Positions 32,325-55,500 of a stretch of 64,000 nucleotides of DNA are shown here, in pieces. The stretch's first letter is position 1; the number at the start of each line of letters is the position of its first letter. The DNA is from Burkholderiales bacterium PBB6 (lineage in GTDB: Bacteria; Pseudomonadota; Gammaproteobacteria; Burkholderiales; Burkholderiaceae_C). Position numbers and translations under genes: made by a program. The notes beneath the pieces were generated by a model that did no database searches, had not been told where the DNA came from, and was given only the letters and a program-made list of their open reading frames with translations. Location of the stretch: contig NKIH01000002.1 in assembly GCA_002255925.1 (NCBI GenBank), positions 496,001-560,000 of the forward strand, read 5' to 3'.

Positions 32325-33020
32325 TCAGTGGTGGAGCGCATGCCCCAGGCAGCGCCCCATCAAGCGCTCGAAACCCGGGTCCAGCCGCATCGCGGGCTGG
32401 GGCAAATACTGGCCGGCCCATGAGCGCAGCAGGGCGCCTGCGTGTGGCACGCCGGTGAGTGCCAGGGCTGCGTCGGCGCCCAGGTCGTCTTCACGCACGC
32501 TCAGCAGGCGTTCCAGCACCTCGCGGGCGGCGTAGCTGCCACCGGGGGTCAGGCTGGGACCGTCCAGCAGTTCGATCTGCGCCTGCCAGATGCTCGTCAC
32601 CTGCAGGCTGATGGCGGGCTGGGCCATGCCGGCCAGCACGGCCCGCGTGGCGGGGTCCTGGCCCATCAGCAGGGCAATGCCCAGCACGAGGTCGGCCACG
32701 CCCACGTCGTAATCCAGGCGGTGGTTCACGCCGGCCCGGTGGGCTTCATGGGCGGGGTCGCCCGTCACGCCATAACCGAGTTGCAGGGCGGGAATGTGGC
32801 GGGTGTCGGCACGCGTGCGCAGGTGGTGCACCAGCGCCAGGCCGGCCGCGTTCTGCGCGCCGGCATTGACGATGAGCAGCCGAATGGGGGTGACCTTCAG
32901 GAGGGCCAGGGCCTCCCAGGGCTGTTCCGCCTCGAAGACCTTCCAGCCTACGGCGTTCAGCAAGTCAACCACCACACGTCGCCGTGTGGGGACCGGGTCG
33001 AGGACGAGGATATTGCTCAT
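32325..33020 (-). CDS. Degenerate receiver-domain protein
   Basis: A 231-residue protein. Residues 1-120 have receiver-like order (MSNILVLDPVPTRRRVVVDLL ... IRLLIVNAGAQNAAGLALV ... HIPALQLGYG), but the phospho-acceptor position holds Asn in LLIVNAG and the acidic pair is reduced to one Asp. It is probably a pseudo-receiver that cannot be phosphorylated. The C-terminal half is helical and unrecognised. It is the last gene of the left chemosensory arm, 54 bases after cheY with a hairpin between, and converges on hrpA with 25 bases between the stops. Confidence 0.6.
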   Translation of the reverse strand: MSNILVLDPVPTRRRVVVDLLNAVGWKVFEAEQPWEALALLKVTPIRLLIVNAGAQNAAGLALVHHLRTRADTRHIPALQLGYGVTGDPAHEAHRAGVNHRLDYDVGVADLVLGIALLMGQDPATRAVLAGMAQPAISLQVTSIWQAQIELLDGPSLTPGGSYAAREVLERLLSVREDDLGADAALALTGVPHAGALLRSWAGQYLPQPAMRLDPGFERLMGRCLGHALHH

Positions 33021-33038
33021 ACCTTGTTATCGACCCTG

Positions 33039-33067
33039 CACGACCCGGCTTGAGAGCCGGTGTCGTG
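33039..33067 (-). promoter_or_regulatory. Strong hairpin between cheY and the pseudo-receiver gene
   Basis: CACGACCCGGCT (33039-33050) pairs with AGCCGGTGTCGTG (33055-33067) with one bulged T and a TGAG loop. No T-run follows on the minus strand. It may reduce read-through or protect the upstream mRNA. Confidence 0.45.
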
Positions 33068-33074
33068 TGCTGAT

Positions 33075-33452
33075 TCAGCGAACTGGCGCCGTGTTGCCGA
33101 GGTATTCGGCGATCAGCTTGAGCAGCTCATTGCCGCCCACGGGCTTGATCATCCAGGCGGTGGCGCCCGCAGCCTTGGCGCGGTCCCGCAGGCCACGCTG
33201 GCCCTGGGTGGTCAGGGCCACGATGGGGGTGAAGCGCAGCAATTGTCTGGCCGCGGCAATCAGCGCCAGGCCGTCCAGGCGCGGCATCATGATGTCGGTC
33301 AGCAGCAGGTCAGGGCGCAAGCCGCCGTTCAGCAGGTCCAGCGCGGCCTGGCCGTCTTCGGCCGTCACCACGGTGTGGCCGGCCAGCGTCAGGGACATCT
33401 CGATGCTGCGACGCATGGTCGGCGAGTCATCGGCGATCAGGATGGTGCTCAT
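33075..33452 (-). CDS. CheY-like single-domain response regulator
   Basis: A 125-residue stand-alone receiver. The acidic pair is in ILIADDSPTMRR, the phospho-Asp in LLLTDIMMPRLDG, the switch Thr in IVALTTQGQ, and Lys in WMIKPVGGNEL. It follows the membrane MCP at 33468-34712 by 15 bases. It closely resembles the regulators at 34721 and 52354 and is probably a third copy of that type. Output partner unknown (flagellar or pilus). Confidence 0.92.
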   Translation of the reverse strand: MSTILIADDSPTMRRSIEMSLTLAGHTVVTAEDGQAALDLLNGGLRPDLLLTDIMMPRLDGLALIAAARQLLRFTPIVALTTQGQRGLRDRAKAAGATAWMIKPVGGNELLKLIAEYLGNTAPVR

Positions 33453-33467
33453 GGGTGCATGCCCGCT

Positions 33468-34720: not shown

Positions 34721-35086
34721 TCACGCGCCAGGCAGTACTTGCTTGATCACTTTCACCAGCTCGGCGCCGCCGACCGGTTTCACCAGCCAGCCCGTGGCGC
34801 CGCTTTTCTTGGCTTCGTCGCGTTTGCCCTGTTGGCTTTCGGTGGTCAGGGCCAGGATGGGCGTGAAGCGCAGCAGCTTGCGCGCTTCCTTGATCAGGGC
34901 GATCCCGTCCATCCGCGGCATGTTGATGTCCGTGATGATCAGGTCGGGCTTCAGGCCGGACTTCAACTTCGTCAGGGCAGCTTCGCCGTCGCCGGCGGTA
35001 TCTACCTTGAATCCGCTGATCTCCAGAGTGCCCTTGAGGCTCATCAGCATCGTGGCCGAATCGTCCACCAGAAACACGCTCTTCAT
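34721..35086 (-). CDS. CheY-like response regulator
   Basis: A 121-residue receiver: acidic pair in [10 protein letters not shown], phospho-Asp in [13 protein letters not shown], Thr in LALTTESQ, Lys in [12 protein letters not shown], and the ending [11 protein letters not shown]. That last segment is identical in type to the end of the 52354-52728 regulator (VIKQVLPGA), so the two are arm-to-arm paralogues. The second of two adjacent ATGs (35086) has AAGGA six bases upstream. The gene stands behind the candidate sigma-28 promoter. Confidence 0.93.
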
Positions 35087-35165
35087 CATCTGTCCTTCAG
35101 GCAATTGGGGTCGTGTGATGCGCGAAGCACCAACCGGAGCCGTTTGCGCGGCTCCCACCACACGG

Positions 35166-35278: not shown

Positions 35279-36124
35279 TCAAGCCTTCTTCTGGTAGATC
35301 AACGCGTCGGGGAAGCGGCGCATCTCGAAGCCCTTGGGGCCGTGGCCGATCGACTCGGAATGCCCGAGGCACAGGAAGCCCTGCGGGTTCAGGCTGGCGT
35401 GCAGGGCCTGCAGTGCGGTGTCGCGCGACTCGTCATCAAAATAGATCAGCAGGTTGCGGCAGAACACGATGTCGATATTCCTGAAATTCCGCGTCTCGGC
35501 CGGTTTGCACAGGTTCACCCGGCTGAATTCCACCGCGTCCACCAGATCGCGGCTGATCTCGAATTCGTCGTTGCCCACCGGCTTGAAGTATTTGCGCAGC
35601 AGGTTGGCCGGCAATTCCCCCACCGAGCGGCGCGAATAAACGCCCGTCTGGGCAGCGGCCAGCACCTGGGTGTCGATGTCCGAGGAGAGGATCTCCACGT
35701 CCACCTCGTTGATGTGGCGCCAGCGCTCCAGCAGGTAAATCGCGATCGAGTACGGCTCTTCGCCCGTGGACGAGGGCACCGACCAGATCCGGATGGTTTC
35801 GCCCGGGGCCTTGCGGGCCCGCACCTCGTTCATCAGGTGGTTGACCAGGCAGTCGAACTGGTAGGCCTCGCGGAAGAAATAGGTTTCGTTGACCGTCATC
35901 GCGTTCACCACGGCCTGGAATTCCAGGCCCTGGGTGTCGCCGCGCAATTGCCGGAACCAGCCGGCGAAATTGGGGGCGCGCTGGATGCGGATACGGTCTT
36001 GCAGGCGCTTTTCGAGGAAATAGCGCTTGCTGTCGTCAAACCAGATGCCGCTCTGGCGGTGGAAATAGGCGCTGAACTGGGCCAGGTCGTCCGGCGTGAT
36101 GGTCAGATCGGGGGCGTGGTTCAT
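35279..36124 (-). CDS. cheR: Chemotaxis methyltransferase CheR
   Basis: A 281-residue methyltransferase that adds methyl groups to receptor glutamates. The N-terminal helical domain has GIWFDDSKRYFLEKRL; MTVNETYFFREAYQF and IRIWSVPSSTGEEPYSIA form the SAM site; VFCRNLLIYFDDE follows. The usual Cys in WSAxCS is Pro here (WSVPSS), as in the other copy (WVLPSS). It overlaps cheB by one base (TGATG, start 36124) or four (start 36127). It is the left-arm copy. Confidence 0.94.
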   Translation of the reverse strand: MNHAPDLTITPDDLAQFSAYFHRQSGIWFDDSKRYFLEKRLQDRIRIQRAPNFAGWFRQLRGDTQGLEFQAVVNAMTVNETYFFREAYQFDCLVNHLMNEVRARKAPGETIRIWSVPSSTGEEPYSIAIYLLERWRHINEVDVEILSSDIDTQVLAAAQTGVYSRRSVGELPANLLRKYFKPVGNDEFEISRDLVDAVEFSRVNLCKPAETRNFRNIDIVFCRNLLIYFDDESRDTALQALHASLNPQGFLCLGHSESIGHGPKGFEMRRFPDALIYQKKA

Positions 36125-37287
36125 CATGCCTTGGCCCAGCTCAAGGCGGGCAGCCAGGCTGTCAATTGGGCGGCCACCTCGTGGCAAGGTTTCACCACAC
36201 CGGCGCCGCCGCGCTGGATCAGCTCGGCCGGCATGCCGAACACCACGGCGGTGTCCTCGGATTCAGCCAGGGTGCGGCCGCCGCGCTGGTGCAGCCGGGT
36301 CATCGCCGCAGCGCCGTCGTAGCCCATGCCGGTGAGCTGCACGCCGATGATGCGGGCGGGTGGCAGCAGGTCGAGTGCGCTGTCCACCATCACATCGACC
36401 GACGGGTGCCACGGGTGCGTGGGGCTCTCGGCGTGCGGCATCACCACCACGCGGCCCAGGCGCTCGGCCAGGATCATGTCGGTGCCACCGCGTCCGATGT
36501 AGATGTGGCCGGGCATCAGCGGCTTCACCGCGTCCACCTCGGCCACGCGCAGGGCGCACAAGCCGTTCATGCGCACGGCAAAGGCACTGGTGAAGTAGCT
36601 GGGCATGTGCTGGGCCACCACCACCGGCCAGGGGAAGTTGGCGGGCAACTGGGGCAGGATGTCCTCCAGCGTTCGCGGGCCGCCTGTGGACACGCCCACC
36701 AGCACCACGCCCGGGCAATGCAGCAGGGCGGTGGCGCTGGCGGCCTTCAGCCGCTGGGCCGCGGAGGCGGGCGCTGCCGCAGGTTGGGCGTTGGGCGCGT
36801 TGTCACGCGCAGCCCGGGTGGCCGCTGCTGGCGCTGTTCGCGTCGGTGCCTGTGTCGGGCGCCGTTCCGGCGTGGCGCGGTTGACCGGCCGGCGCACCTT
36901 GGCGCGGGCCGCCGCCTTCACCTTGGCCACCAGCACCGGACCCATGTCGCCCAGGCTCACCGACATCGTGCCGCCGGGCTTCTCGATGAAGTCCACGGCG
37001 CCCATGGCCATGGCTTCCAATGTGGCCATCGCGCCCTTGGCCGTGAGTGACGACACCATCACCACCGGGGTGGGGCGGGTCTGCATCATCAGCGACAGGG
37101 CGGTCAGGCCGTCCATCTCGGGCATGTTGATGTCGAGGGTCACAACATCGGGCTCCCAGCGTTCCAGCTCCACCAGGGCTTCCGCCCCGTTGCGGGCGAG
37201 GTGGACTTCGCATCCGGCCTCCGTCAGCACGCCACCGATCAGTCGGCGCATCAACGCAGAGTCGTCGACCACCATCACCCGTGTCAT
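36124..37287 (-). CDS. cheB: Chemotaxis methylesterase CheB
   Basis: A 387-residue CheB. The receiver (1-120) has MVVDDSALMRR and phospho-Asp in VVTLDINMPEMDG. An Ala/Arg/Pro-rich linker (about 140-195) leads to the esterase domain. There the catalytic Ser is in VGVSTGGPRTLEDIL, His in VVAQHMPSYF, and Asp in TGMGYDGAAA. It removes methyl groups from, and deamidates, receptors. It is 2 bases downstream of the triple-CheW gene. Confidence 0.96.
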   Translation of the reverse strand: MTRVMVVDDSALMRRLIGGVLTEAGCEVHLARNGAEALVELERWEPDVVTLDINMPEMDGLTALSLMMQTRPTPVVMVSSLTAKGAMATLEAMAMGAVDFIEKPGGTMSVSLGDMGPVLVAKVKAAARAKVRRPVNRATPERRPTQAPTRTAPAAATRAARDNAPNAQPAAAPASAAQRLKAASATALLHCPGVVLVGVSTGGPRTLEDILPQLPANFPWPVVVAQHMPSYFTSAFAVRMNGLCALRVAEVDAVKPLMPGHIYIGRGGTDMILAERLGRVVVMPHAESPTHPWHPSVDVMVDSALDLLPPARIIGVQLTGMGYDGAAAMTRLHQRGGRTLAESEDTAVVFGMPAELIQRGGAGVVKPCHEVAAQLTAWLPALSWAKA

Positions 37288-37289: not shown

Positions 37290-38936
37290 TCAGGCGATGC
37301 TGAAGGAGGCGTCCGCCCCGGAGGCCGTCAGTGCGCCGATGGCGCCGGCTTCACCATCGTCGAGCAGGCGCGTCGGATCAACCAGCAGCACCAGCCGGCC
37401 GTCGCCATCGAGCTTGGCCACCTGACTGATGAGACCCGACTGGTCGCTGCTCAGCGACGGAGCCGGCTCGATCAGGCGATGGGCCACCCGCAGCACGTCG
37501 ATCACCGCGTCGACGATGAAGCCGGTGCGCACCCCGCGCAGCAGGTACACCATGATGCGCTGGCGCTCGTTGCGCTCGATCGGCGGCAGGCCGAAGCGCG
37601 CGCGCTGGTCTACCACCGGCAGCACCGCGCCACGCAGGTTGATCATGCCTTCCACCCAGGGCGGCGAGCGTGGCACGTGCGTCAGCGTTTCCGGCAGGCG
37701 CACGATCTCCTGCACGCTCATGATGGGCACGCCGAACTCTTCCGCACCGAGGCGAAAGATCACCATCTGGCTGTCGTCGTCGATCGGGTCCACGGTGTTG
37801 TCTCCTTCGACCTGGGAATCAATGCTGGCGCTGCCGGCAGCGGCGGTTGATCCGCACTGGGCATGCAGCGCTTCCTGGATGCCGCGCAGGCCGAGCAGCT
37901 TGCTGGTCGTGATGATCGACACCAACCGGCGCCCGTCGTCCAGGCGGCAGATGGCTTCGAACTCCTGCAGGCCCTGGTCCTGGGCCAGCAGGCCGGGCAT
38001 GGCATCGGTCTGGTCGCGCGGCACCCGCAGCACTTCCTTCACGGTGTCCGTCACCAGGCCCACGCGGTGGCCGCCGGGCAGGCCCACCACCACCACGCGG
38101 TGGTGCTCGTCGAGTTGATCCATCGGCAGCGCGAAGATCGTGCGCAGGCTCACCAGCGGCAGCAGGCGCTGGCGCAACGACATCAGACCCAGCACATGGC
38201 TGGCCGAGCGCGGCACGCCGATGATGTTGTCTGGCACCTGCACGATCTCCTGCACGCTGGCAATGTCGATCGCGTATTCCTGGCCGGCCACGGTGAAGCT
38301 CACCAGGCGGGCCTCATCGGTGTCGGTGTTGTCAGCTTCGCTGCTGGCGGGTGCGCCGTCCAGCGCTTGCTGGGCACCGCCAGTGGCTGCATCGCCGTTG
38401 CCAACGTCCGCCAGCCGTGCGAACTGCTGGCGCGCCAGCAGGCCGAAGTCGAGCACCTGCAGCAGCTGCACCTCACCCGAGGCCTGCGGCCGCTGGATGA
38501 CGCCGGTCAGGAATTCCTGGCTGATGACCGATTCGATGCTGCTGGCGGGCGCCATCTGGCCCGCCTCCACCGAAATGACACTGGCCACCCGGTCAACCAC
38601 GAAGCCGATGGGAATGCCGAGCTGGATGACCAGCGCGCGGCTGGCGTCGTCGGCCTCGCAGGCCGGCAAGCCGAAGAGATGCCGCAGGCTGACGATGGGC
38701 AGCACCTTGCCGCGCAGGTTGGCCAGCCCTTGCAGAGCGGGCGGGGCCAGCGGCATGCGCGCCACGTCGGGCACGCGGATGATTTCCTGCACCGGGCCCA
38801 TCGGCACGGCGAACATCTCGTCCGCCACGCTGAAGGTCACGAACTGCAGGGTCTGGGCCAGGTTGCCGGCGGCCTGCTCCACCGCCTCGGGGGGCAGGGC
38901 GGGCAGGGCACTGGCGGGAGGGTCACTGAGGTTCAT
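37290..38936 (-). CDS. Triple-CheW-domain coupling protein (left arm)
   Basis: A 548-residue protein made of three CheW domains in tandem (about 30-165, 205-345, 395-535), with no receiver or kinase part. Each repeat shows VxEIIRVPD-like and ANLRGKVLPIVSLR-like segments (FAVPMGPVQEIIRVPD; YAIDIASVQEIVQVPD; FGVPIMSVQEIVRLPE). CheW couples receptors to CheA; three domains in one chain could bridge several receptors or kinases. It is encoded immediately after the tandem-tip receptor and pairs with a paralogue at 44625-46190. Confidence 0.93.
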   Translation of the reverse strand: MNLSDPPASALPALPPEAVEQAAGNLAQTLQFVTFSVADEMFAVPMGPVQEIIRVPDVARMPLAPPALQGLANLRGKVLPIVSLRHLFGLPACEADDASRALVIQLGIPIGFVVDRVASVISVEAGQMAPASSIESVISQEFLTGVIQRPQASGEVQLLQVLDFGLLARQQFARLADVGNGDAATGGAQQALDGAPASSEADNTDTDEARLVSFTVAGQEYAIDIASVQEIVQVPDNIIGVPRSASHVLGLMSLRQRLLPLVSLRTIFALPMDQLDEHHRVVVVGLPGGHRVGLVTDTVKEVLRVPRDQTDAMPGLLAQDQGLQEFEAICRLDDGRRLVSIITTSKLLGLRGIQEALHAQCGSTAAAGSASIDSQVEGDNTVDPIDDDSQMVIFRLGAEEFGVPIMSVQEIVRLPETLTHVPRSPPWVEGMINLRGAVLPVVDQRARFGLPPIERNERQRIMVYLLRGVRTGFIVDAVIDVLRVAHRLIEPAPSLSSDQSGLISQVAKLDGDGRLVLLVDPTRLLDDGEAGAIGALTASGADASFSIA

Positions 38937-38956: not shown

Positions 38957-40882
38957 TCAGTTGCTTTGCAGCTCGTCAGCGAGCGAGGCGATTTCCTCGA
39001 TGGCGGCAGCCAGCTCGTCGGTGCCTTGAGACTGCTGCTTGGCCGCCACCGACGCCTGCTCGGCCGACTTCTCGGCCTGCTGCGCGGCGGCAGACACCTG
39101 CTCCACGGCGACCTTCACCTGCGCCAGGGCCGCAACGATCTCGACGGCTGCCGAAGCAGCTTCCGCATTGCCGGCTTCCACATCCGCCACGTCGGTTTCC
39201 ATCGACACCAGGTTGTTGGTGATCGCGCGGGTCTTGTCGACTTCTGCGGCGGCGGCGCCGGCGATCTCGAACAGGTCACGGCCCACCAGGGCGATCTGGT
39301 CCTGGATGCTGCGCACCAGGTCCTTGATGCGGTCGGCGTTGCCGGCCGAGTCTTGCGCCAGGTTGCGGATGTCGGTGGCCACCACCACGAAGCCCTTGCC
39401 GTATTCACCGGCGCGGGCTGCTTCGATGCTGCCATTGATGGCCAGCATGTTCGTCTGCATCGCGACCTGTGTGATGGCGTCCACCACCTTGTCGATGCGG
39501 CGGCTGACCAGCTCCAGCTCCTTGATCTGCTGCATGCTGGTGCGGGTCGAATCCACGCTCATCGTGATGCTGGCGATCAGCCCGTCGACGTGCGACTTGT
39601 TGTCACCCATCAGTGAGCGGATGGCGGCGGCGCGTTCGCGGCCGTTGCCGGCGCGCTGCTCGGCGAGCTGCGCACCCTTTTCGATCTGCGTCACGGCCGC
39701 GGCCGATTCGGTGGTGGCGGCCGACTGGGTCTGGGCGCCTTTGCGGATCTGCTCCAGCGCAATCATGATCTGGCCGGCCGAGCGGTTGATTTCGCTCACG
39801 GCGCTCGACAACTCTTCCGCCGAGCTGGCCACTTCCTCGGCGCTCTTGGCAATGTCCGTCGAGTTCTTCAATTCTTCGGCCACGTCCGACAGGCTGGTGG
39901 CGGTCTGCTCGCACTGGGCCAGCGCGGTGCTTTGTTCCTGCACGGTCTTGGCGGCTTCCTCGCAGGCGGCCGATTGCTCGGCGGCGGCGGCAGCGATCTG
40001 CTCTGCGCCCTTCAAGGCCTGGTCAGAAGCCACCGACGACTGCTGGGCGGCCGCGGCGATCTCGGTGGCGCCGGCCACGATGGCGGCGGCGTCGCTGGCG
40101 ATGCGGCCCAGCTGCTCGATGATCACGCCGCTCTTGTCGACCTCCGCCTGGATGGAGCTGGCCGAGGTGTTGATGCCGTCGGCGATCACCTTGACCTCAC
40201 CCTGGATCTGTCCGACCAGGTCCTGAATCTGTTTGGCGCTCTTTTCGCTGGTTTCAGCCAGCGTGCGCACTTCATCAGCCACCACTGCAAAACCCTTGCC
40301 GTGCTGGCCGGCTCGGGCGGCTTCAATGGCAGCGTTCAGGGCCAGCAGGTTGGTCTGGTCGGCGATGCGGACCACGGCCTTGACGATGTCGCCGATGTTG
40401 GCAGCCTGGCGTTCGAGCTCGGCCACCATCTTCACGGATTCGGTCTGGCGGCGGGCGGCCACGCCCACATTGGTCACGGTGGCGCCCACTTCGCCATTGA
40501 TGCGGGTGGCCAGGGTCTGCATGCCCTCGGCCTTGCTGCGCGCCAGGCTGGCGGCGTTCAGCTGGCGCACGATCGCCGCACTCACCTGGTTGACGGCGGC
40601 CAGCGATTCCTGGGCGGCGCCGGCGGCTTCTTCAGCGCCAGTGGCGATCTGGTCGGAGGCACGCTTGAGTTCTTCAGCGGCGGCGGCGGCTTCATTGATG
40701 CCGGCCGACAGCTGGGTGGAGGCGGCCGCCACGCGCTCTGCGGCTTGCTGCTGCTTGGCGACCGTGCGGGCTCGCTTGCGATGGATGTCGGCGTCACGGC
40801 TCACGTTGCGGCTGGCCGCGGCAACAGGCACGTAGGACTCGGCAGCGGGCTGTGCGCCGCGGTTTTTCATCACGAGAGACAT
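38957..40882 (-). CDS. Soluble chemoreceptor with two signalling tips (left arm)
   Basis: A 641-residue, almost wholly helical Ala/Glu/Gln-rich protein with no membrane segment and no sensor domain. A basic N-terminus ([13 protein letters not shown], about 34-46) precedes two MCP hairpin tips. Tip 1 is at 172-206 ([19 protein letters not shown] then [11 protein letters not shown]). Tip 2 is at 472-506 ([19 protein letters not shown] then [11 protein letters not shown]). The 300-residue spacing means two full cytoplasmic hairpins in one chain. ATG 40882 follows AGGAG. It is the first gene of the left arm. Confidence 0.92.
40172..40399 (-). repeat. 228-bp inverted repeat, left copy (tip 1 of receptor)
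   Basis: The minus strand of this segment aligns without gaps to 43165-43392 on the plus strand, with about 10 mismatches by eye, all but one silent. A run of about 62 bases is identical. It encodes the first signalling tip of both tandem-tip receptors. Flanking sequence of the same genes is more diverged. Confidence 0.8.
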
Positions 40883-46200: not shown

Positions 46201-47355
46201 ATGATCAAGCTTCTGATCGTTGATGACTCGGCGCTGATGCGTCGACAACTCAGCTTGCTTTTTCAGGCGGCGGGTGATTTTGTCATTCGCCAGGCACGCA
46301 ACGGGCAGGAGGCGGTGGAAGAAAACCGCGAGTTCCAGCCCGATGTCGTGACCCTGGACATCAACATGCCGGAGATGGACGGCATCACGGCGCTCTCGCT
46401 GATCATGGCGGAGCGGCCGGTGCCGGTGGTGATGGTGAGCTCACTCACCGAGAAGGGCGCACTCGCCACCTTCGAGGCGCTGAACCTCGGTGCGATCGAC
46501 TACGTGGCCAAGCCCGGCGGCACCATCTCGCTGTCGCTCGACCAGATCAAGGACGAGCTGCTCACCAAGGTGCGCGGCGCCATGCGTGCACGGCCCGGTA
46601 CCCGCGGCAGCCCGCTTGGGCGCACGGCCGCACCCAGGCCAGCACTGAGGCCCGCACCTGCGCTGCGCACCACCGCCACTGAGCAGCCGTCGAAGGCCCA
46701 GTCACTGGCGCAACGCCTGCGTGAAGAGCGCGAGGCCCACGCCGCCAGTGCGCGTGAACGTTCGGCCGTGCGCAACACCCGCGATGGCCTGCTGTTGATC
46801 GGCGTGTCCACCGGCGGGCCGCGCGCCCTGGAAGCGGTGTTGCCCGACCTGCCGGCCGACTTCCCCTGGCCGGTGCTGGTGGTGCAGCACATGCCGGCCA
46901 GCTTCACCGGCCCGTTCGCCGCGCGGCTGGACAACATCTGCCCGCTCACCGTGGTGGAGGCTTCACGCCCGATGCCGGTGGAGCGAGGCCATGTGTATGT
47001 GGGCAAGGGCGGCGCCGACATGGTGGTGACCCGCCGTGCCGGCGTACTCACCGTGTTGCCCAAGCCCGAGAACGCCGCACACCTGTGGCACCCGTCGGTG
47101 GAGCTGATGGCCCGCACCGCGCTGGAAGTGGTGGCGGCTGACCAACTGCATGCGGTGATGTTGACTGGCATGGGCAATGACGGCGCCGATGCCTTCACTG
47201 AAATCAAGCGTCGCGGTGGTCGCACCGTGGCCGAGTCTGAAGAGACCGCGGTCGTCTGGGGCATGCCCGGCGAACTCGTGAGCCGCGGGGGCGCCTCGAT
47301 GGTGCTGCCGCTCGACAAGATCAGTGCCCAGGTCAAGGCCTGGGCCCTGCGTTAA
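46201..47355 (+). CDS. cheB: Chemotaxis methylesterase CheB
   Basis: A 384-residue CheB with receiver (IVDDSALMRRQL; phospho-Asp in VVTLDINMPEMDG; Lys in YVAKPGGTI), a basic Ala/Pro linker, and esterase (GVSTGGPRALEAVL, VVQHMPASFTGPF, TGMGNDGADA). All catalytic positions (Ser, His, Asp) are present. It is the right-arm counterpart of 36124-37287. The next gene starts 16 bases later. Confidence 0.96.
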   Translation: MIKLLIVDDSALMRRQLSLLFQAAGDFVIRQARNGQEAVEENREFQPDVVTLDINMPEMDGITALSLIMAERPVPVVMVSSLTEKGALATFEALNLGAIDYVAKPGGTISLSLDQIKDELLTKVRGAMRARPGTRGSPLGRTAAPRPALRPAPALRTTATEQPSKAQSLAQRLREEREAHAASARERSAVRNTRDGLLLIGVSTGGPRALEAVLPDLPADFPWPVLVVQHMPASFTGPFAARLDNICPLTVVEASRPMPVERGHVYVGKGGADMVVTRRAGVLTVLPKPENAAHLWHPSVELMARTALEVVAADQLHAVMLTGMGNDGADAFTEIKRRGGRTVAESEETAVVWGMPGELVSRGGASMVLPLDKISAQVKAWALR

Positions 47356-47371: not shown

Positions 47372-47995
47372 ATGGCCCTGAAAAAACCCCCCACCGCGGT
47401 CACCACGGAGCACTCTGGCAGACAGCATGAACGGGACGCCGCAGGGCTGTTGAAACAGCTGACCGACAGCAACGCCGAAGTGCGCCGCTGGGCCGCCCGC
47501 GACCTGGCCGACTGCCCGGGCTGCTCGGAGGCCCTGGTCGAGCACCTGAAAACCGAGGCCGACACCTCGGTGCGCGAAGTCATCCTGACCAGCCTGGTGC
47601 TGCTGGGCGACAACACCGCGGTGTACGGCCTGGTGGCCTGCATGCGCAGTGAGGACGCCGCCTTGCGCAACGAGGCCATCGAGGCGATGAAGCAGCTGCC
47701 CGATGCGGTGTCGCCCATCATGCGCGGCCTGCTGGCCGACGAAGACAGCGACATGCGCATCTTCGCGGTGAACATCCTCGAGTCGCTGAAGCACCCGAGC
47801 GTCGAGCAGTGGCTGAGTGACGTGATCGAGCACGATGACCACGTCAATGTGTGTGCCACCGCGGTGGATCTGCTGGGCGAAGTCGGCTCGCGCACCGCGC
47901 TGGAGCCGCTGCTTCGCCTGAAGACCCGCTTCGACAAGGAGCCCTACATCCAGTTTGCGGCCGACCTGGCCATCAAGCGCATCCTGGAGGGCTGA
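47372..47995 (+). CDS. HEAT-repeat protein in chemosensory operon
   Basis: A 207-residue alpha-helical repeat protein with about four to five HEAT/PBS-lyase-like units of ~31 residues. Examples are LTDSNAEVRRWAARDLADC, KTEADTSVREVILTSLVLL, MRSEDAALRNEAIEAMKQL and LADEDSDMRIFAVNILESL. No catalytic motif. It probably acts as a protein-binding scaffold or adaptor for CheB or CheR. It is absent from the left arm. ATG 47372 follows AAGGA. Confidence 0.85.
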   Translation: MALKKPPTAVTTEHSGRQHERDAAGLLKQLTDSNAEVRRWAARDLADCPGCSEALVEHLKTEADTSVREVILTSLVLLGDNTAVYGLVACMRSEDAALRNEAIEAMKQLPDAVSPIMRGLLADEDSDMRIFAVNILESLKHPSVEQWLSDVIEHDDHVNVCATAVDLLGEVGSRTALEPLLRLKTRFDKEPYIQFAADLAIKRILEG

Positions 47996-48001: not shown

Positions 48002-48838
48002 ATGGCCGATCCCGTCATCACCGATGAGGACTTCCAGAAATTCCGGGAGTTCTTCTACCGGAAAACCGGTATCCAGTTCGACAACACCAAACGCTACTTC
48101 GTCGACAAGCGCCTGCTCGAGCGCATGGCCGACACCGGCAATGCCCAGTTCCGCAGCTACTTCACGATGCTGCGTTTCCAGGCGACCGGCGAAGAGCTGC
48201 AGGTGCTGACGAACCTGATGACCGTCAATGAAACCTACTTCTTCCGCGAGGAGTACCAGTTCCGCTGCCTGGTCAATTCCATCCTGCCCGAGCTGGTGTC
48301 CCGCAAGAAGGACAGCGGCCCCTTGCGCATCTGGGTGCTGCCCTCGTCCTCGGGCGAGGAGCCGTACTCCATCGCCATCTGCCTGCTGGAAATGTGGGCC
48401 GGCATCCACCAGTACGACGTGGAGATCGTGGCGTCGGACATCGACACCCACATCCTCGACCAGGCCCGACGCGGCTTGTATTCAGACCGCTCGGTGGGCC
48501 AGCTGCCCAAGCCCTACCTCGCCAAGTACTTCAAGCGCACGGCGGCGGGCTACCAGATCTGTGACGACCTGCGCGGCGCGGTGGAGTACACCCGCGTGAA
48601 CCTGTCGGACCGCGCAGACACGCGGCCCTACCGGAACTTCGACGTGGTGTTCTGCCGCAACCTGCTCATCTACTTCGACGACGTGTCTCGCAAGTCCGCC
48701 GCCGAAACCTTCTACGACGCCTTGAAGCCTGGCGGCTTCATCTGTCTGGGGCACTCTGAATCCATGAGCCGGATCTCCTCGCTCTACAAGGTTCGCAAGT
48801 TCCCTGAGGCCATCGTCTACCAAAAGCCCGCAGAGTAA
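48002..48838 (+). CDS. cheR: Chemotaxis methyltransferase CheR
   Basis: A 278-residue CheR: GIQFDNTKRYFVDKRLLERM, LMTVNETYFFREEYQFRCL, the SAM site LRIWVLPSSSGEEPYSIAIC, and VFCRNLLIYFDDV. It is the right-arm counterpart of 35279-36124. No TPR extension is present. It is 6 bases after the HEAT gene and 4 bases before cheY. Confidence 0.95.
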   Translation: MADPVITDEDFQKFREFFYRKTGIQFDNTKRYFVDKRLLERMADTGNAQFRSYFTMLRFQATGEELQVLTNLMTVNETYFFREEYQFRCLVNSILPELVSRKKDSGPLRIWVLPSSSGEEPYSIAICLLEMWAGIHQYDVEIVASDIDTHILDQARRGLYSDRSVGQLPKPYLAKYFKRTAAGYQICDDLRGAVEYTRVNLSDRADTRPYRNFDVVFCRNLLIYFDDVSRKSAAETFYDALKPGGFICLGHSESMSRISSLYKVRKFPEAIVYQKPAE

Positions 48839-48842: not shown

Positions 48843-49214
48843 ATGAAACGCATTCTGATCATCGATGATGCCGCCACGGTTCGTCTCTACCATCGTCGAA
48901 TCCTGCAAGAGGCAGGGTACGAGGTGGTGGAAGCCATCAACGGGGTGGAGGCGCTTGAAAAGGCGCTGCAAATGAACTTTGACCTCTACATCGTGGACGT
49001 CAACATGCCCAAGCTGGATGGCTACGGATTCCTGCGTGAATTGCGCAACCAGGACGCGCCGCAAGTGCCGGCGATCATGGTGTCGACGGAGGCCTCTGCC
49101 GCCGACCGAAAGCGCGCCTACGCGGCAGGGGCCAACCTGTACTTGGTCAAGCCCACGAGGCCTGAACAACTGGTGGCGCCCATCGCGCTGCTGCTCGGAG
49201 ACCAGGAAGAATGA
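48843..49214 (+). CDS. cheY: CheY-like response regulator upstream of cheA
   Basis: A 123-residue receiver: ILIIDDAATVRLYHRR, phospho-Asp in LYIVDVNMPKLDG, Ser/Thr switch in IMVSTEASAAD, Lys in YLVKPTRPEQL. The stop overlaps the cheA start (ATGA), so the pair is translationally coupled, suggesting it is a direct CheA substrate. No counterpart exists in the left arm. Confidence 0.93.
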   Translation: MKRILIIDDAATVRLYHRRILQEAGYEVVEAINGVEALEKALQMNFDLYIVDVNMPKLDGYGFLRELRNQDAPQVPAIMVSTEASAADRKRAYAAGANLYLVKPTRPEQLVAPIALLLGDQEE

Positions 49215-52078
49215 ACGAGCTGCTCGAACAGTTCCTGTCCGAAGCGCGAGAGGCGCTTCAGGGCATTGCCGACATGCTGATGCAGCTCGAACGCGCACCG
49301 GCTGACGAAGACTTGATGACCCAGCTGTTCCGGCTGGTGCACACCTTGAAAGGCAACAGCGGGCTGTTCGAGTTCCCGGAGATGACCCGCGTGCTGCATG
49401 CGGGTGAGGATTTGATGGACGCTGTCCGCCACGGACGGGTGCCGTATTCGCAGCCGCTGGCCGACCGCCTGCTCGACGCGATGGACTTCGTCGGCATGCT
49501 GTGCGATGACATCGAGAACGGCGTGCACAACGGCTCAGCCCATGCCGATGCGGCCGTGCAGCTGGCCGCGGCGCTGCGCAGCCTGATCGGTGACACGGCA
49601 GGCGAGGGTGGCGCTGATGGCGCCGAAGACCCCGACGAGGTGGCACGCGGCAGCCTGCCCGTGTTCACACCCGCGGCCGTGCTGCAGGTGCCCGAGGCCG
49701 TGCGCCGCGAAGCGTTCAGGGAGGTCGATGAAGGCCGCTCGCTGTGGTGGGTGTATTACCAGCCCGACGAGGAATGCTTCTTCCAGGGCGACGACCCCTT
49801 GCACCGCGGCATGCAGACGCCCGGCGTGTTGTGGGGCGGCCTGAAAGCGCGTGCCCCGTGGCCCGCGCTGCCCGAGCTGGATGCCTTCCGCTGCATGCTC
49901 GACATGCAGCTGCTCAGCACCGCGGATTCGTCCGAGCTGGATGAGCACTACCGCTATGTGCCCGAACAACGCCTGATCAGCGCCGTGAACCCGTGGTGCC
50001 TGGTGCAGCCCGAGGGCGACCCGAACGGCGGCCCTGTCTACGAAGACTTTGTCGCCGACGCGCTGGCCTTGCTGGATGCCGGTGACCTGCAGGGCCTGGA
50101 GCGGGCCGTGGACACCTTGCTGGAGCTGTCCAGCCCCACGCTGTGGTTGTCTTCGGCACTGCGCTGGATGCAGACGCTGCTGGCCTGCCGCACGGTGAAC
50201 CAGCCCGCGCTGCGTGCGCTGATTGAATCCCTCAACACCTTGCAGGCGCCCGACTGGATGGCGGTGATGGACGCCATGCTGGATGCGGGTGGCCATGGCG
50301 CTGAGCCTGGTGTGGTGGCAGATGTTGCTGAAGCGACCACGGCTGCGCCCGCGCCCGCCGCTGCCACGCACATCGAGCTGCACGGTGTGGCCGCCGAGGC
50401 CCTGAACAACCTGGTTGAAACCCAGCGCGAAATCCTCTCGCTGCCGGACGACGCGAAGTGGCTGGCCGGCCGCATCAAGGCTGCGGCCAAGGTGCTGGAC
50501 GGGTGCCTGCACGCCGTGGGCCGTGGCAATGAAGTGCCTGCGCTGCAGGCCGCTGCACAGGCTGCGCTGGCCGACATGACCGCCGCGCCGCTGGCGGCCT
50601 GGCTGGAAGACGCTTTTCCGGAAGGTACGCTGGCCACGCAGGCCCAGCCGTTGGCTGCGGTGGCCGCCGCATCAGTGGTGCCTGCCGCTGCTGCACCTGT
50701 GCTGGCCACAGCCGGTAACGGGGCTGATTGGCCGGCCAAGCCAACGACTGCTGCCTCCGCACCCGCCGCCGCAGACGACGACACGGATGACGACGATGAG
50801 CCGGCCGGTGCCGACGACGTGGTGCCTGGTGTGCCAGCCAGCCGCAGCGGTGAGCCAGTCGACGGCGACGTCAAGTTCGGCCGCCGCAGCGAAGACCAGC
50901 AGAGCGCGCGCAGCCTGAAGGTGGACCAGGTCAAGATCGACCGTCTGATGAACCTGATCGGCGAGATGGTGGTGGCGAAGAACGCCATTCCCTACCTGGC
51001 CAACCGGGCTGAAACCGTGTTCGGCGTGCGTGACCTCTCGCGTGAGATCAAGGCCCAGTACGCGGTGATCAACCGCATCTCCGAGGAGATGCAGGACGCC
51101 ATCATGCAGGTCCGCATGATGCCGGTCTCCTTCGTGTTCCAGCGCTTCCCGCGGCTGGTGCGCGACACCTCGCGCCGCCTCGGCAAAGACGTGAACCTGG
51201 TGCTGGAAGGCCAGGACACGGCCGCCGACAAGAACATCATTGAATCGCTGGGTGACCCGCTGGTGCACATCGTGCGCAACAGCCTCGACCACGGCCTGGA
51301 AATGCCCGAGGTGCGCAAGGCGGCGGGCAAACCGGCCATCGGCACGCTGAAGATCGTGGCGCGCCAGGAATCCGACCGCGTGGTCATCGAGATCAGCGAC
51401 GACGGCAAGGGCATCGACCCCGACGTCATCAAGCGCAAGGCCTACGAGAAGGGCGTGATCGACGAGGCGATGCTGGAACGCATCACCGACGCCGAAGCCA
51501 TCAACCTGATCTTCGCTGCCGGGTTCTCCACGGCCGAAACCGTGTCCGACCTGTCAGGCCGCGGTGTGGGCATGGACGTGGTGCGCACCGCGATCGAGCG
51601 GGTCAATGGCGCCATCACGCTCGACAGCGAGAAGGGCAAGGGCACGCGCATTCGGCTGTCGCTGCCGCTGTCGATGGCCGTGACCAACGTGATGACCATC
51701 GAGACCGATGGCCAGGTGTTCGGCGTGCCGATGGACATGGTGCTGGAGACCGTGCGGGTGCCGCGCAGCAGCGTGCGCCAGATCAAGCAGAGCATGGCCA
51801 CCGTGCTGCGCGACCGCGTGGTGCCGCTGAAGTCGCTCAATGGCTTGCTGGGGCTGTCTGCAGCGCCGCTGGCCAACGAGAGCGATGAGCTGGCCGTGCT
51901 GATCGTGCGCGTGGGCGAAGAGACCGTGGGCCTGCTGGTGGACGAGTTCCGCGAGACGGCCGACATCATTCTCAAGCCGCTGGCCGGCGTGCTGGCAGGC
52001 CTGAAGTCGTATTCCGGCTCTGCCCTGATGGGCGACGGTTCGGTCTTGATGGTGCTGAACGTGAAGGAAATGCTCTGA
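49211..52078 (+). CDS. cheA: Chemotaxis histidine kinase CheA
   Basis: A 955-residue CheA. P1/Hpt carries phospho-acceptor His44 in FRLVHTLKGNSGL. Residues ~150-260 (YYQPDEECFFQGDDPLHRG) look like a P2-type domain of the G-x-DPL kind. A long Ala/Pro-rich linker with an extra helical module (about 385-480) follows. P3 dimerisation starts near 576 (VDQVKIDRLMNLIGEMVV). P4 ATPase has VRNSLDHGLE, ISDDGKGID and SGRGVGMDVV. P5 is CheW-like to the end. It is the only CheA in the window and must serve both arms or an unseen partner. Confidence 0.96.
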   Translation: MNELLEQFLSEAREALQGIADMLMQLERAPADEDLMTQLFRLVHTLKGNSGLFEFPEMTRVLHAGEDLMDAVRHGRVPYSQPLADRLLDAMDFVGMLCDDIENGVHNGSAHADAAVQLAAALRSLIGDTAGEGGADGAEDPDEVARGSLPVFTPAAVLQVPEAVRREAFREVDEGRSLWWVYYQPDEECFFQGDDPLHRGMQTPGVLWGGLKARAPWPALPELDAFRCMLDMQLLSTADSSELDEHYRYVPEQRLISAVNPWCLVQPEGDPNGGPVYEDFVADALALLDAGDLQGLERAVDTLLELSSPTLWLSSALRWMQTLLACRTVNQPALRALIESLNTLQAPDWMAVMDAMLDAGGHGAEPGVVADVAEATTAAPAPAAATHIELHGVAAEALNNLVETQREILSLPDDAKWLAGRIKAAAKVLDGCLHAVGRGNEVPALQAAAQAALADMTAAPLAAWLEDAFPEGTLATQAQPLAAVAAASVVPAAAAPVLATAGNGADWPAKPTTAASAPAAADDDTDDDDEPAGADDVVPGVPASRSGEPVDGDVKFGRRSEDQQSARSLKVDQVKIDRLMNLIGEMVVAKNAIPYLANRAETVFGVRDLSREIKAQYAVINRISEEMQDAIMQVRMMPVSFVFQRFPRLVRDTSRRLGKDVNLVLEGQDTAADKNIIESLGDPLVHIVRNSLDHGLEMPEVRKAAGKPAIGTLKIVARQESDRVVIEISDDGKGIDPDVIKRKAYEKGVIDEAMLERITDAEAINLIFAAGFSTAETVSDLSGRGVGMDVVRTAIERVNGAITLDSEKGKGTRIRLSLPLSMAVTNVMTIETDGQVFGVPMDMVLETVRVPRSSVRQIKQSMATVLRDRVVPLKSLNGLLGLSAAPLANESDELAVLIVRVGEETVGLLVDEFRETADIILKPLAGVLAGLKSYSGSALMGDGSVLMVLNVKEML

Positions 52079-52317
52079 TGCCGATCGACTACCGTAAAAA
52101 ACTGGCTGTTTTTGCCGATGTCATCACTGTGGAAGACGCTGAACCACTGCTGGCCTGGGCGCAGCAGCGCAAGGACTGCAAGGTTGATCTTTCGGCATGC
52201 AGCCATGTGCATCCTGCGAACCTGCAGGTGCTGCTGGCAGCCAACGCAGAAGTGACGGCCTGGCCGAATGACGAATGGCTGACGGCATGGTTGCGAACCG
52301 TGCTGCGTGGCCGGTGA
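52078..52317 (+). CDS. Small STAS-like domain protein
   Basis: A 79-residue protein whose pattern FADVITVEDAEPLLAWAQQ...CKVDLSACSHVHPANLQVLL resembles a shortened STAS (anti-anti-sigma) fold. The position normally occupied by the phosphorylated Ser is His/Pro (SHVHPANLQ), so regulation by phosphorylation is doubtful. It overlaps the cheA stop by one base (TGATG), implying coupled synthesis. Function unknown; an adaptor role in the array is inference. Absent from the left arm. Confidence 0.6.
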   Translation: MPIDYRKKLAVFADVITVEDAEPLLAWAQQRKDCKVDLSACSHVHPANLQVLLAANAEVTAWPNDEWLTAWLRTVLRGR

Positions 52318-52353: not shown

Positions 52354-52728
52354 GTGGCCAAGACCATCATGGTGGTAGACGACTCGCTGACGATGACACG
52401 CAGCCTGAAGTCGAATCTGGAGATGAGCGGCTTCGCTGTTCTGACCGCTGGTGATGGTGTGCAGGCCATGACGGCCCTGAAGGGCGGCGCCAAGCCGGAC
52501 CTCATCATCACCGACATCAACATGCCCAACATGGGCGGCCTGGAGCTGATCAAGAACGTCAAGGCCTTGCCCGGTTTCCGCTTCACGCCCATCCTCACGC
52601 TGACCACCGAAGGCGACGCCTCGATGCGTGACGCCGGCAAGAAGGCCGGGGCCGCGGGCTGGCTGGTCAAGCCGGTCAAGGGCCCTGATCTGGTGGGCGT
52701 CATCAAGCAAGTGCTGCCTGGTGCATGA
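52354..52728 (+). CDS. CheY-like response regulator
   Basis: A 124-residue receiver: [13 protein letters not shown], phospho-Asp in [13 protein letters not shown], Thr in ILTLTTEGD, Lys in [12 protein letters not shown], ending VIKQVLPGA. Start GTG 52354 is preferred because AAAGGGA lies about six bases upstream; an in-frame GTG at 52318 would add 12 non-receiver residues. It is the right-arm counterpart of 34721-35086, and in both arms it directly precedes the membrane MCP. Confidence 0.92.
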
Positions 52729-52738: not shown

Positions 52739-53992
52739 ATGAGCTATCAAACTTCAACGCTGGCTCCAGCCGATGCGCCTGCCGCGTCGGCCATGCCCGG
52801 CGGAGAAAGAACCATCTGGGCGACGTTGGGACCGTGGCTGACACCCGTGCTGGCCGTGGCGCTGGCCACGGGTGCGGCGGTGGTGTTGCCGCTGGATGGC
52901 TGGGGCCCTGTGGCTGCGGCAGCTCTGGGTGGCGCGCTGGCGGTGGGCATCACGCTGGTGCTGCAGCGCTGGTGGCGTCCGGCCTCTGCGCGGGCAGCTG
53001 GTCTTGCGCAAACGGCAGGGCAGCTGAACGGCGCCGAGCCCTTCATTGACCTGATGTGCGAGCAGCTCAATGGCGCCTTGCAGCAATGCGAGACCGACGT
53101 GCTCGGCGTGGTCGACACGCTGGACCAGGTGCATGCCGCCTCACAGGCGCAGACCGACCGGATCGAATCGGCGACCGCCAATGCGCGTGAGCTGGCCGGT
53201 GTGCTGGATGAAAAGCGCATGGTCGACCGCCAGCTCAGCGCCATCCTTCAAATGTTCGTCGAGCGCCAGGAGCAAGAGCTTGAGGGCAACGCCGAGCGCG
53301 TGAAGCGCCTGCAGGAAGTGCGCGGTCTCGGGCCGATGGTGGACGTGATCGCCGAGGTGGCGCGCCATACCAACATCCTGGCCATCAATGCCTCGATCGA
53401 GGCCGCACGCGCCGGCGAAAGCGGACGTGGTTTTGCGGTGGTCGCGGGCGAAGTGCGCCGGCTGGCCGCGCAGACGGCGTCGGCTGCCGTGGAGATCGGC
53501 AACCGCATCAACAACGTCACCTCGGGCATTGACCAGGAAGTGATGAAGGCGCAGAAGGCCGGTGAACGCGACTACGGCACCCGCAGCATGCGTGACGTGC
53601 TGGGGGACATCGAGGCGATGCACGGGCGCTTCGCCGAAGCCGCTGAGCGCCTGCGTGGCGACACCGGCATCGGCGAAGGCAACACGGCGATCCGCAACGG
53701 CCTGTCTGAAGCGCTGGGCCTGATCCAGTTCCAGGACGTGCTGCGCCAGCGGGTGGGTCAGGTGCAGGCCTCGCTCGATGCGCTGAGCGGGCATCTGGCC
53801 GCCACCGAAGCCAATGCCATCGCTGCTGGACAGGGGCACCCCGTGGCCACGCCGCGCACCGCTGGTTTGCTGGCCTTGCTGGCCGAGCAGAAGGCCGCTT
53901 ACGTGATGAACAGCCAGCGCCACACCCACCAGTCGGTCACCGGCCAGAAGGTGGCGACCCAGGAAGAGCGTCCGCCCATCGAGCTCTTCTGA
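52739..53992 (+). CDS. Membrane-anchored methyl-accepting chemotaxis protein
   Basis: A 417-residue MCP with two adjacent membrane segments (about 29-48 and 52-72) and no periplasmic domain. The tip [19 protein letters not shown] lies near 220, followed by [12 protein letters not shown]. The motif QFQDVLRQ follows the hairpin, then AYVMNSQR and a C-terminal IELF. The left-arm homologue shares this plan (YVMHSQR, IEMF). ATG 52739 is 10 bases after the cheY stop. Its tail may be a docking site for an array component. Confidence 0.9.
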
Positions 53993-54047
53993 GATGGCAT
54001 GACGGATCGCTGCGTTCCGGTCCATGCGTATGGAATGAACTGCTGAC

Positions 54048-54812
54048 ATGGTCAAGGCGCGTGTACTGGCTGTCACCAACCGCAAGGGTGGCAGCGGCAA
54101 AACCTCCACGTCGGTGAACCTGTCGGCCGAACTGGCCGCGCAGGGCCACCGCGTGCTGCTGATCGACCTCGACACCCAGGGCCATTGCGCCATCGGGCTG
54201 GGGGTGCCGGCCGTGCGCAACGGGCCCACAGTGCACGGCTTCATGGCGGGGCGTCACAGCCTGTCTGCGGCCATCGTGCCCAGTGCCTGGGCTGGCCTGC
54301 ACCTGATTCCGGCTGACCCCCTGTTCGAACACGGCTCCGGCCAGCAGCAAGACCATGTGCTGTGGACGGCGCTGCAGCAGGAAGAGTTGCTGACGCAGTA
54401 CGACGTGGTCGTGCTCGACACCCCACCGTCGCTCGATGCCTTGCTGCTGAACGCCCTGTGCGCTGCAGACCGCGTGCTGGTGCCCTTCGTGCCGCACTTT
54501 CTGGCGGGCGAGGGCGTGCGGCAGCTGGCGCGGGTGCTGTTTCGCGTGGCCAGCCGGGGCGGCAATGACCGCCTGCGGGTGCTGGGCTTTCTGCCGGTGA
54601 TGCAGGACGCGCGCATCGGCCAGCACCGCAGCGTGACCGACAGCCTGGCGCAGCAATTCGGCGCTGACCGCATCCTGCCGGGCATTCGCAACGACATCCG
54701 CGTGGCCGAGGCCTTCGCGGCCGGCAAGCCGGTGCGTGAGCACGCGCCCAATGCACGCGCCACCGCCGACTACGCGCTGGCCGTGCTGGCCGCCTGGCGT
54801 CGCTGGACCTAG
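54048..54812 (+). CDS. parA: ParA-family ATPase in chemosensory locus
   Basis: A 254-residue MinD/ParA ATPase. The deviant Walker A NRKGGSGKTSTSVNL has the signature Lys13 and Lys18; LLIDLDTQGHCAIGL is the switch I region, and VVVLDTPPSLDALLL is Walker B. No ParB gene lies beside it. ParA proteins in chemotaxis loci (PpfA in Rhodobacter, ParC in Vibrio) position arrays in the cell; that role here is inferred from context. Its stop codon falls in a tandem decamer repeat. Confidence 0.88.
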   Translation: MVKARVLAVTNRKGGSGKTSTSVNLSAELAAQGHRVLLIDLDTQGHCAIGLGVPAVRNGPTVHGFMAGRHSLSAAIVPSAWAGLHLIPADPLFEHGSGQQQDHVLWTALQQEELLTQYDVVVLDTPPSLDALLLNALCAADRVLVPFVPHFLAGEGVRQLARVLFRVASRGGNDRLRVLGFLPVMQDARIGQHRSVTDSLAQQFGADRILPGIRNDIRVAEAFAAGKPVREHAPNARATADYALAVLAAWRRWT

Positions 54813-54826
54813 CTGGACCTAGCTGG
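54802..54826 (+). repeat. Tandem decamer repeat across the parA stop
   Basis: GCTGGACCTA occurs at 54802-54811 and 54812-54821, followed by a half copy GCTGG. The TAG stop of parA (54810-54812) spans the first junction. A likely slippage duplication. Confidence 0.85.
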
Positions 54827-54861
54827 TGGCGCACCGATTGCCCAGACCATTGCCCGCTGAC

Positions 54862-55500
54862 ATGCCCACGAGTTCTCCCACTGACGTTCTTACCACCCAG
54901 CAAGCCGCGCGGTTGCTGGGCATCTCGACCACGTCGGTGCAGAAGATGGTGGGGCGGGGCGAGCTGGCGGCGTGGGTGACACCCGGCGGACATCGCCGCA
55001 TCCAGCGTGCGGCGGTGGACGCCTTGCTGGCGCGTGATGCGGTGGAGCGCGCATCGCCTGCACCGCTCGAAACAACCGACGTGCCGCCACCGCTGCGCGA
55101 CGCGCTGCATGTGCTGGTGGCCGAAGACGACCCGGATCAGGCGATGTGGCTGCAACGGGTGCTGGAGGCGCATGGTGCGGAGATCGTCTGCCACCTGGCC
55201 ACCGATGCCTCGCAGGCGCTGATCCTGCTGGAGCGCCATCGGCCCGATCTGGTGGTGACCGACCTCGTGATGCAGCCGTTTGACGGCTTCCACCTGGTGC
55301 GCACCATCGCTGCCGAGCCAGCCTGGCAGCACATCGACGTTCTGGTGCTGTCGGGCCTGAGTGACGACGAGATTGCGGCGCGCGGCGGCTTGCCGCCTGG
55401 CGTGGCACGCATGCGCAAACCGGTGGGTGTGGAGCGCCTGCTGGGCTACCTCGACGCCGCCTGGGCGCACCACGCGGCGGCACTGGCCCGCCGCGCATGA
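54862..55500 (+). CDS. Excisionase-type HTH fused to a receiver domain
   Basis: A 212-residue protein. Residues about 8-60 form a MerR/excisionase-like winged HTH: LTTQQAARLLGISTTSVQKM, then GELAAWVTPGGHRRI. Residues about 82-205 are a receiver: LHVLVAEDDPDQAMW, phospho-Asp in LVVTDLVMQPFDG, Ser in VLVLSGLSD and Lys in ARMRKPVGVERL. DNA binding before the receiver is the reverse of the usual order. The start is uncertain: ATG 54862 or GTG 54826, no clear ribosome site. It may be the transcriptional output of the array or control the locus. Confidence 0.85.
   Translation: MPTSSPTDVLTTQQAARLLGISTTSVQKMVGRGELAAWVTPGGHRRIQRAAVDALLARDAVERASPAPLETTDVPPPLRDALHVLVAEDDPDQAMWLQRVLEAHGAEIVCHLATDASQALILLERHRPDLVVTDLVMQPFDGFHLVRTIAAEPAWQHIDVLVLSGLSDDEIAARGGLPPGVARMRKPVGVERLLGYLDAAWAHHAAALARRA

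Follow-up and report, generated by a model that had tools for sequence, protein, structure and literature searches.

A complete and a kinase-less F9-like chemosensory cluster joined at one locus of a Burkholderiales genome

What does a bacterium do with two sets of chemosensory genes and a single kinase beside them? The question is raised by a locus in Burkholderiales bacterium PBB6 (GenBank assembly GCA_002255925.1, contig NKIH01000002.1, positions 496,001 to 560,000 of the forward strand), a stretch of 64,000 nucleotides that we call the window and whose own numbering we use. Two gene sets point away from each other here, a left arm on the minus strand and a right arm on the plus strand. A sequence-only reading had recognised this mirror image and taken it for an inverted segmental duplication of one cluster, followed by loss of genes from the left arm. 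Trees and gene neighbourhoods point elsewhere. Two different clusters of the F9 chemosensory class appear to have come together on either side of a resident gene, and the left one, most likely a resident cluster without its kinase core, probably works as an accessory set on the CheA of the right one. What appears to be new is that a complete F9 set and a kinase-less one are joined in a single locus; the DosM/triple CheW signature and partial F9 sets were known already.

Two F9 sets and one CheA

Open reading frame calls and Pfam searches confirmed the genes that had been named, in the order and on the strands given, the outer left cheY being typed by similarity only. They also upheld the two oppositely directed sets and the single CheA of the locus. 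From the centre outward, the right arm (+) runs dosM, cheW3, cheB, HEAT, cheR, cheY, cheA, STAS-like, cheY, mcp (for a methyl-accepting chemotaxis protein, MCP), parA and a gene for a helix-turn-helix (HTH)-receiver protein. The left arm (-) runs dosM, cheW3, cheB, cheR, cheY, mcp, cheY. Between the arms lie a HAD phosphatase gene (serB-like) and a receiver gene at 42063-42446 (+), which had been missed. The span first proposed, 32325-55500, probably needs trimming too: 32325-33020 is a divergent receiver gene, probably resident and outside the mirror. The likelier start positions are 40882 for the left DosM, 42697 for the right DosM, 36127 for the left CheR and 35089 for the left CheY1.

Each receptor has two MCP signalling stretches and each coupler three CheW domains. 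A DosM with a double signalling domain and a triple CheW are architectures called unique to the F9 class in a survey of 2781 species that found full sets in 64 and partial sets in 8 (PMC9321776). Since both arms carry the signature, both are F9-like. The right arm has the full set, with CheA, CheB, CheR and CheY in the same cluster and a DosM whose two tip motifs stand 300 residues apart; judged by architecture and gene content, and set beside Vibrio cholerae by description, it is F9-like. The F9 array of V. cholerae is purely cytoplasmic and double-layered, stabilised by DosM, which spans two base plates of CheA (VC1397) and triple CheW (VC1402) (PMC7534058). Cluster I of that organism resembles the right arm in having these two, a DosM (VC1403) and a 24H membrane MCP (VC1394), with locus tags that fit the right-arm order (PMC7534058). 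It differs in being one set, whereas the window has a second, CheA-less F9 set divergently beside the complete one, and its right arm is followed by genes for ParA, the HTH-receiver protein and histidine kinases.

The left arm resembles the partial F9 sets of Nitratiruptor, Nautilia and others, which have dosM, cheW3, cheB and cheR without cheA (PMC9321776); all four genes are present, by their domains and, for dosM, cheW3 and cheB, by clade placement. The Campylobacterota partial sets, in the text cited, have no cheY in the cluster and no F9 CheA (PMC9321776), whereas the left arm has two cheY genes, an MCP gene and a complete F9 set adjoining. Because it retains cheY and has an F9 CheA next door, we do not file it with them. 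The remark that no characterised system with this combination was known to the reader therefore needs dividing: DosM with triple CheW marks a known class in which partial sets have been described, and the two joined sets are the novelty. Among the titles and abstracts listed from an open-licence library on DosM, triple CheW, F9 and Ideonella chemotaxis, none dealt with a locus that joins a full F9 set to a kinase-less one.

The features of the window are listed below. Loci collected from other genomes carry L numbers; branch support is by the Shimodaira-Hasegawa-like approximate likelihood ratio test (SH-aLRT), and dN/dS is the ratio of nonsynonymous to synonymous substitution rates. The labels hrpA, serB and mfd are what we take these flanking and intervening genes to be.

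28127..32299 (+), hrpA-like helicase, resident left flank; by tblastn at most 6 kb from serB in 13 of 13 stretches of the genus without DosM; in L050 the neighbour of a left-type cluster that is complete
32325..33020 (-), divergent receiver-like gene, probably a resident outside the F9 set; Response_reg below cut-off (E=0.0015); L173-L176 (genomes without a DosM match) have homologues (51-54%) between serB and hrpA
33075..33452 (-), left cheY2; 57% to left cheY1, 69% to L140
33468..34712 (-), left membrane MCP with an N-terminal hydrophobic region (hydropathy); MCPsignal; sister to the left MCP of Ideonella livida, SH-aLRT 99
34721..35089 (-), left cheY1; Response_reg; 92% to I. livida, dN/dS 0.06
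35279..36127 (-), left cheR; CheR domains; long branch; motifs kept
36124..37287 (-), left cheB; REC and CheB_methylest; left-type clade
37290..38936 (-), left cheW3 (triple CheW); three CheW stretches; left-type clade, 43 rows, SH-aLRT 100
38957..40882 (-), left dosM (double-tip receptor); two MCPsignal stretches; tip spacing 300; left-type clade
41156..41866 (-), HAD phosphatase, serB-like, resident gene between the arms; HAD hydrolase; matched in 15 of 16 genomes of the genus
42063..42446 (+), stand-alone receiver upstream of right dosM; Response_reg; homologues in I. livida (73%) and, upstream of dosM, in L123, L125, L133 and L143 (46-63%)
42697..44607 (+), right dosM; two MCPsignal stretches; sister to I. 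livida, SH-aLRT 99
44625..46190 (+), right cheW3; three CheW (PF01584) stretches; nine-row clade, SH-aLRT 100
46201..47355 (+), right cheB; REC and CheB_methylest; placed by tree
47372..47995 (+), HEAT-repeat protein; HEAT_2
48002..48838 (+), right cheR; CheR domains; placed by tree
48843..49214 (+), right cheY1; Response_reg
49211..52078 (+), cheA, the only one of the locus; Hpt, H-kinase_dim, HATPase_c and CheW; sister to I. livida, SH-aLRT 98
52078..52317 (+), STAS-like protein; STAS_2 E=5.1e-4, below the curated cut-off; tblastn homologues in 75 of the loci searched
52354..52728 (+), right cheY2; Response_reg; revised start
52739..53992 (+), right membrane MCP with two hydrophobic N-terminal stretches (hydropathy); MCPsignal; placed by tree
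54048..54812 (+), ParA-like ATPase of the right-type cluster; AAA_31; nearest right-type relatives at 64-70%
54826..55500 (+), HTH_17-receiver protein, perhaps a transcriptional output; HTH_17 and Response_reg; 55% in I. livida
55597-58281 and 58253-61036 (+), two sensor histidine kinases that follow the right arm; both with HisKA and HATPase_c, the first also with PAS; counterparts in I. livida (L180) after the HTH-receiver gene, at 40% for one and 46% (over 439 residues) for the other
61022..64000 (-), mfd-like gene, resident right flank, running past the window end; on the serB side away from hrpA in 11 of 13 stretches of the genus

Lineage of the two arms

Searches with CheW3 matched 14 of 250 genomes of the family and 10 of 300 of the order, and a genome scan kept 80 of 294 loci; together they yielded loci from a wide range of genera. 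The CheW3 tree holds 96 rows (101 collected, 5 duplicate records dropped); the other trees were built on chosen subsets of the rows collected (dosM 41 of 96, cheB 42 of 98, cheR 42 of 95, mcp 37 of 71). The left cheW3 falls in a clade of 43 rows (SH-aLRT 100) with Rubrivivax, Sphaerotilus, Aquabacterium, Leptothrix, Roseateles and others, the right cheW3 in one of 9 rows (SH-aLRT 100) with I. livida, Giesbergeria and Paucibacter. The dosM, cheB and mcp trees agree, setting the arms in different F9 sub-lineages. Approximately unbiased (AU) tests reject a single clade of left and right copies for dosM (p=2.7e-5), cheB (p=7.6e-116), mcp (p=1.6e-37) and, more weakly, cheR (p=0.021). The left cheR genes of the window and I. 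livida have long branches beside row L133, a different cheR gathered by our script, and the tree does not settle their placement.

The mirror image, on these trees, is not an inverted duplication. What spoke for one was the colinear gene order, the 70% identity of the DosM proteins (CheW3 and CheR share 52%, CheB 50% and MCP 32%) and the DNA of tip 1, where the two dosM genes are each other's best match (89%) and their pairing is not rejected (p=0.49), a resemblance that shared codon bias could explain. Pairing is rejected in the middle of the gene (p=1.8e-5) and not at tip 2 (p=0.099). Colinearity loses its force because this order is common to such loci. A further objection is that serB is followed by a left-type cluster in two other genera. 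With the left-versus-right phylogeny, named beforehand as the comparison that could refute it, finding the copies in different F9 sub-lineages, the duplication is refuted for the arms taken whole; we now think it very improbable indeed. The only hint of gene conversion between the dosM copies is that four-fold sites of tip 1 match at 41 of 50, above all within-clade comparisons of either copy (maxima 0.75 and 0.69); against it, values of up to 0.84 are found in cross-clade pairs from other genomes, and genomes share stretches of 70-80 identical bp with one another. An assembly artefact was rejected as well: four of the five protein pairs are only 32-52% identical, and an independent genome record has the same composite site.

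Mosaic loci do occur. In the left-type clusters L048, L081, L089 and L096, the stand-alone receiver of the window has homologues (59-67%), and an MCP is right-type-like by best hit.

Where did the arms stand before they met? Of 13 stretches from genomes of the genus in which DosM was not matched, 11 have serB flanked by mfd and hrpA; in the other 2, mfd was not seen within the stretch. The receiver-like gene now at the outer end of the left arm lies between serB and hrpA in 4 of these 13, so it is probably resident. A metagenome-assembled genome (MAG) of Azohydromonas lata (L050, on the same contig as L069) reads mfd, serB, a complete left-type F9 cluster and hrpA, with the cluster oriented as in the window. 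Rubrivivax benzoatilyticus (L065) reads mfd, serB and then, directly behind it, left-type dosM and cheW3 before the contig ends; in a wider stretch of L071, serB is about 6 kb from the left-type cluster.

Left-type loci (typed by best hit) number 42. All 31 that extend at least 6.5 kb past cheW3 carry cheA, as do 5 of the 11 shorter ones, and the left arm of the window is the only left-type locus with room and without cheA. Pseudogene remnants of cheA, HEAT or STAS were not recognised in the left arm by tblastn, which returned only cross-matches of CheW and receiver domains and weak short hits. The left arm is most likely a resident F9 cluster minus HEAT, cheY, cheA and STAS. The loss of these four genes, part of the earlier account, therefore stands, with a different complete cluster as ancestor in place of a copy of the right arm. 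The right arm, together with its receiver and two histidine kinases, we read as an arrival between serB and mfd, the order of arrival being the conjectural part.

A second genome helps here. DosM is matched at E<=1e-100 in 2 of 16 genomes of the genus, the window's and that of I. livida TBM-1 (G546), which has the same composite site, with the right arm, receiver and HTH-receiver gene in the same place. Of its left arm there remain cheY, mcp, cheY and a divergent cheR; the locus has no left dosM, cheW3 or left-type cheB, and one DosM and one triple CheW were found in the genome. As F9 clusters flank serB in both genomes, they would have been joined already in a common ancestor. At the outer end of the reduced arm (L140:1-2368) lies a CheB-CheR fusion of 789 residues. 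Two CheW3 at E<=1e-50 were found in 1 of 27 CheW3-bearing genomes (399 genomes of the family) and 1 of 11 (369 of the class), the window's genome both times; with 3 or 4 candidates scored per genome, these counts are lower bounds. Two MAGs gave two loci each in the locus scan.

Probable working of the left arm

Given the lone CheA of the locus, the simplest arrangement would be a mixed double-layered array, driven by the right CheA and with four CheYs as outputs. Two different F9 clusters would have come together on either side of serB in the common ancestor of the window genome and I. livida, the left one as the older resident of the serB-hrpA site. HEAT, cheY, cheA and STAS, whose loss is evident from the comparison, would probably have gone once the second complete cluster was present, while DosM, CheW3, CheB, CheR, the CheYs and MCP of the left arm stayed intact. 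Both DosMs, presumably rods of equal length with a similar tip at each end, most likely enter one double-layered cytoplasmic array whose base plates hold both CheW3s. The single right-arm CheA would drive it and phosphorylate right and left CheYs. The left arm would in this way supply accessory receptor, coupler and output proteins to the kinase next to it.

The geometry allows this. Tip anchors are 300 residues apart in 90 of 91 aligned DosMs, both window copies included, and 299 apart in the other, as expected for a rod bridging two base plates. Around the tips the two window proteins differ at 3 of 80 residues (tip 1) and 11 of 80 (tip 2); equal spacing and similar tips would permit their co-assembly. 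The two CheW3s are less alike, at 52% identity. That the tip spacing hardly varies between different hosts points to a simple rule for telling which DosMs could enter the same double-layered array. Precedents come from other systems. The Che1 and Che4 arrays of Azospirillum brasilense are membrane arrays of other classes, and the CheWs of Agrobacterium fabrum are single-domain proteins. Support for a mixed array lies in the paralogues of the two Azospirillum systems sharing one base plate (PMC6759762), with two CheAs (CheA1, CheA4) where the window locus has one, and in Agrobacterium, which has one kinase with two CheWs and two CheYs, unlike the window in lacking two joined F9 clusters. Sharing of the kinase between left and right is, on the gene evidence, the best-supported reading.

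Selection bears on whether the left arm does anything at all. Its main rival account makes it a decaying relic, replaced by the incoming right cluster and losing its remaining genes one by one, without a role. Such decay sits badly with the open frames of the left genes, the intact CheB and CheR motifs, and a dN/dS between the window and I. livida of 0.06 for left cheY1 (92% identity). The ratio is 0.40 for left cheY2, 0.42 for left mcp and 0.60 for left cheR, and 0.09-0.48 for right-side genes; the left mcp is 71% identical between the two species, the right mcp 58%. The left cheY-MCP-cheY genes remain under constraint. Left dosM is constrained like its clade, with a median dN/dS of 0.27 against the clade and 0.29 within it.

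Decay has its own evidence, which weighs against the shared kinase together with several other points. Left genes are missing stepwise, first in the window and then in I. livida, where left dosM and cheW3 are absent, so that a genome with the right arm can do without them. Among 18 genes compared, none exceeds left cheR in dN/dS (0.60), and left cheW3 and cheR stand on long branches (end branches 0.99 and 1.08). Median dN is raised for left cheR (0.334, against 0.192 in the clade), for left cheW3 (0.339, against 0.259) and for left cheB too, and clade-conserved columns are broken at 21 of 128 in cheR, 12 of 198 in cheW3 and 6 of 127 in cheB, each a larger share than in any other left-type row. 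The left DosM has one marginal hydrophobic stretch, at 610-628 (hydropathy). Among the stretches collected for the 42 left-type loci, only 2 include serB and only 2 hrpA. The cluster is therefore mobile, and its residence at this site rests on few cases, which slightly lowers our confidence. The mixed array, the shared kinase and the order of arrival we infer from the genes. At 3 of 19 lineage-specific columns, left CheW3 has the right-type residue; none of 40 other left-type rows has it at more than 1. In left dosM the figure is 3 of 15, not unusual when one other row has 4, and left cheB and cheR have none. The CheW3 residues are suggestive of adaptation to the right CheA and no proof of it. 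Taken together, we read the left-arm pattern as function with a changed partner, count the relaxation of cheR and cheW3 as real evidence for decay, and regard decay as unlikely.

A different partner is conceivable: the left arm may rely on some other class's CheA within the cell, as has been suggested for the kinase-less partial sets of Nitratiruptor and Nautilia (PMC9321776). The genome offers candidates, which also count against sharing of the right CheA: two further CheA-type frames by H-kinase_dim and a 2126-residue frame that contains a CheW domain. Against this, the distance from left dosM to a CheA of its own class is about 8 kb, and no left-type locus that could be judged has lost the kinase unless it has a second F9 cluster for company; we find a foreign kinase improbable.

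Returning to the shared right-arm CheA, the two genomes may show a kinase handover at two stages. The resident kinase core would have become redundant after the second F9 cluster landed, with its adaptation enzymes, coupler, CheYs and receptor scaffold kept to give the newcomer's CheA further input and output in one mixed array, whose two DosM scaffolds have identical length, and I. livida would stand at a further stage, its left set reduced to cheR, cheY, MCP and cheY. On this fuller sequence of events our judgement is evenly balanced.

The structure of F9 arrays is known; we know of no role for them. Here is a natural composite locus that departs from the design of one system with one kinase, and a second species at a further stage, so that array mixing, kinase sharing and stepwise loss become testable in two related bacteria. 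The locus may show how a bacterium merges two sensing machines.

Further loci in related genomes

Other unusual arrangements turned up among the collected loci. An Aquabacterium MAG (ANIsp_002; L099, L072) has one cluster that includes cheA and also a dosM-cheW3 pair, which lies 1.2 kb from the end of a different contig. L114:8042-13915 and L113 have a right-type-like dosM and cheW3; in L114 these are followed by a 681-residue protein whose match to CheA is only weak, and by further genes, so that it may be one more partial F9 set. L056 (G000:C32:25000-44500) carries at 5214-14845, in a row, a 1067-residue receptor with seven PAS stretches, another triple CheW, a 119-residue protein without a Pfam match and two caspase-domain proteins; no CheA was seen within that stretch. 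In a Burkholderiaceae MAG (L118:10058-11665) the triple CheW is split into two frames, by a natural split or a frameshift.

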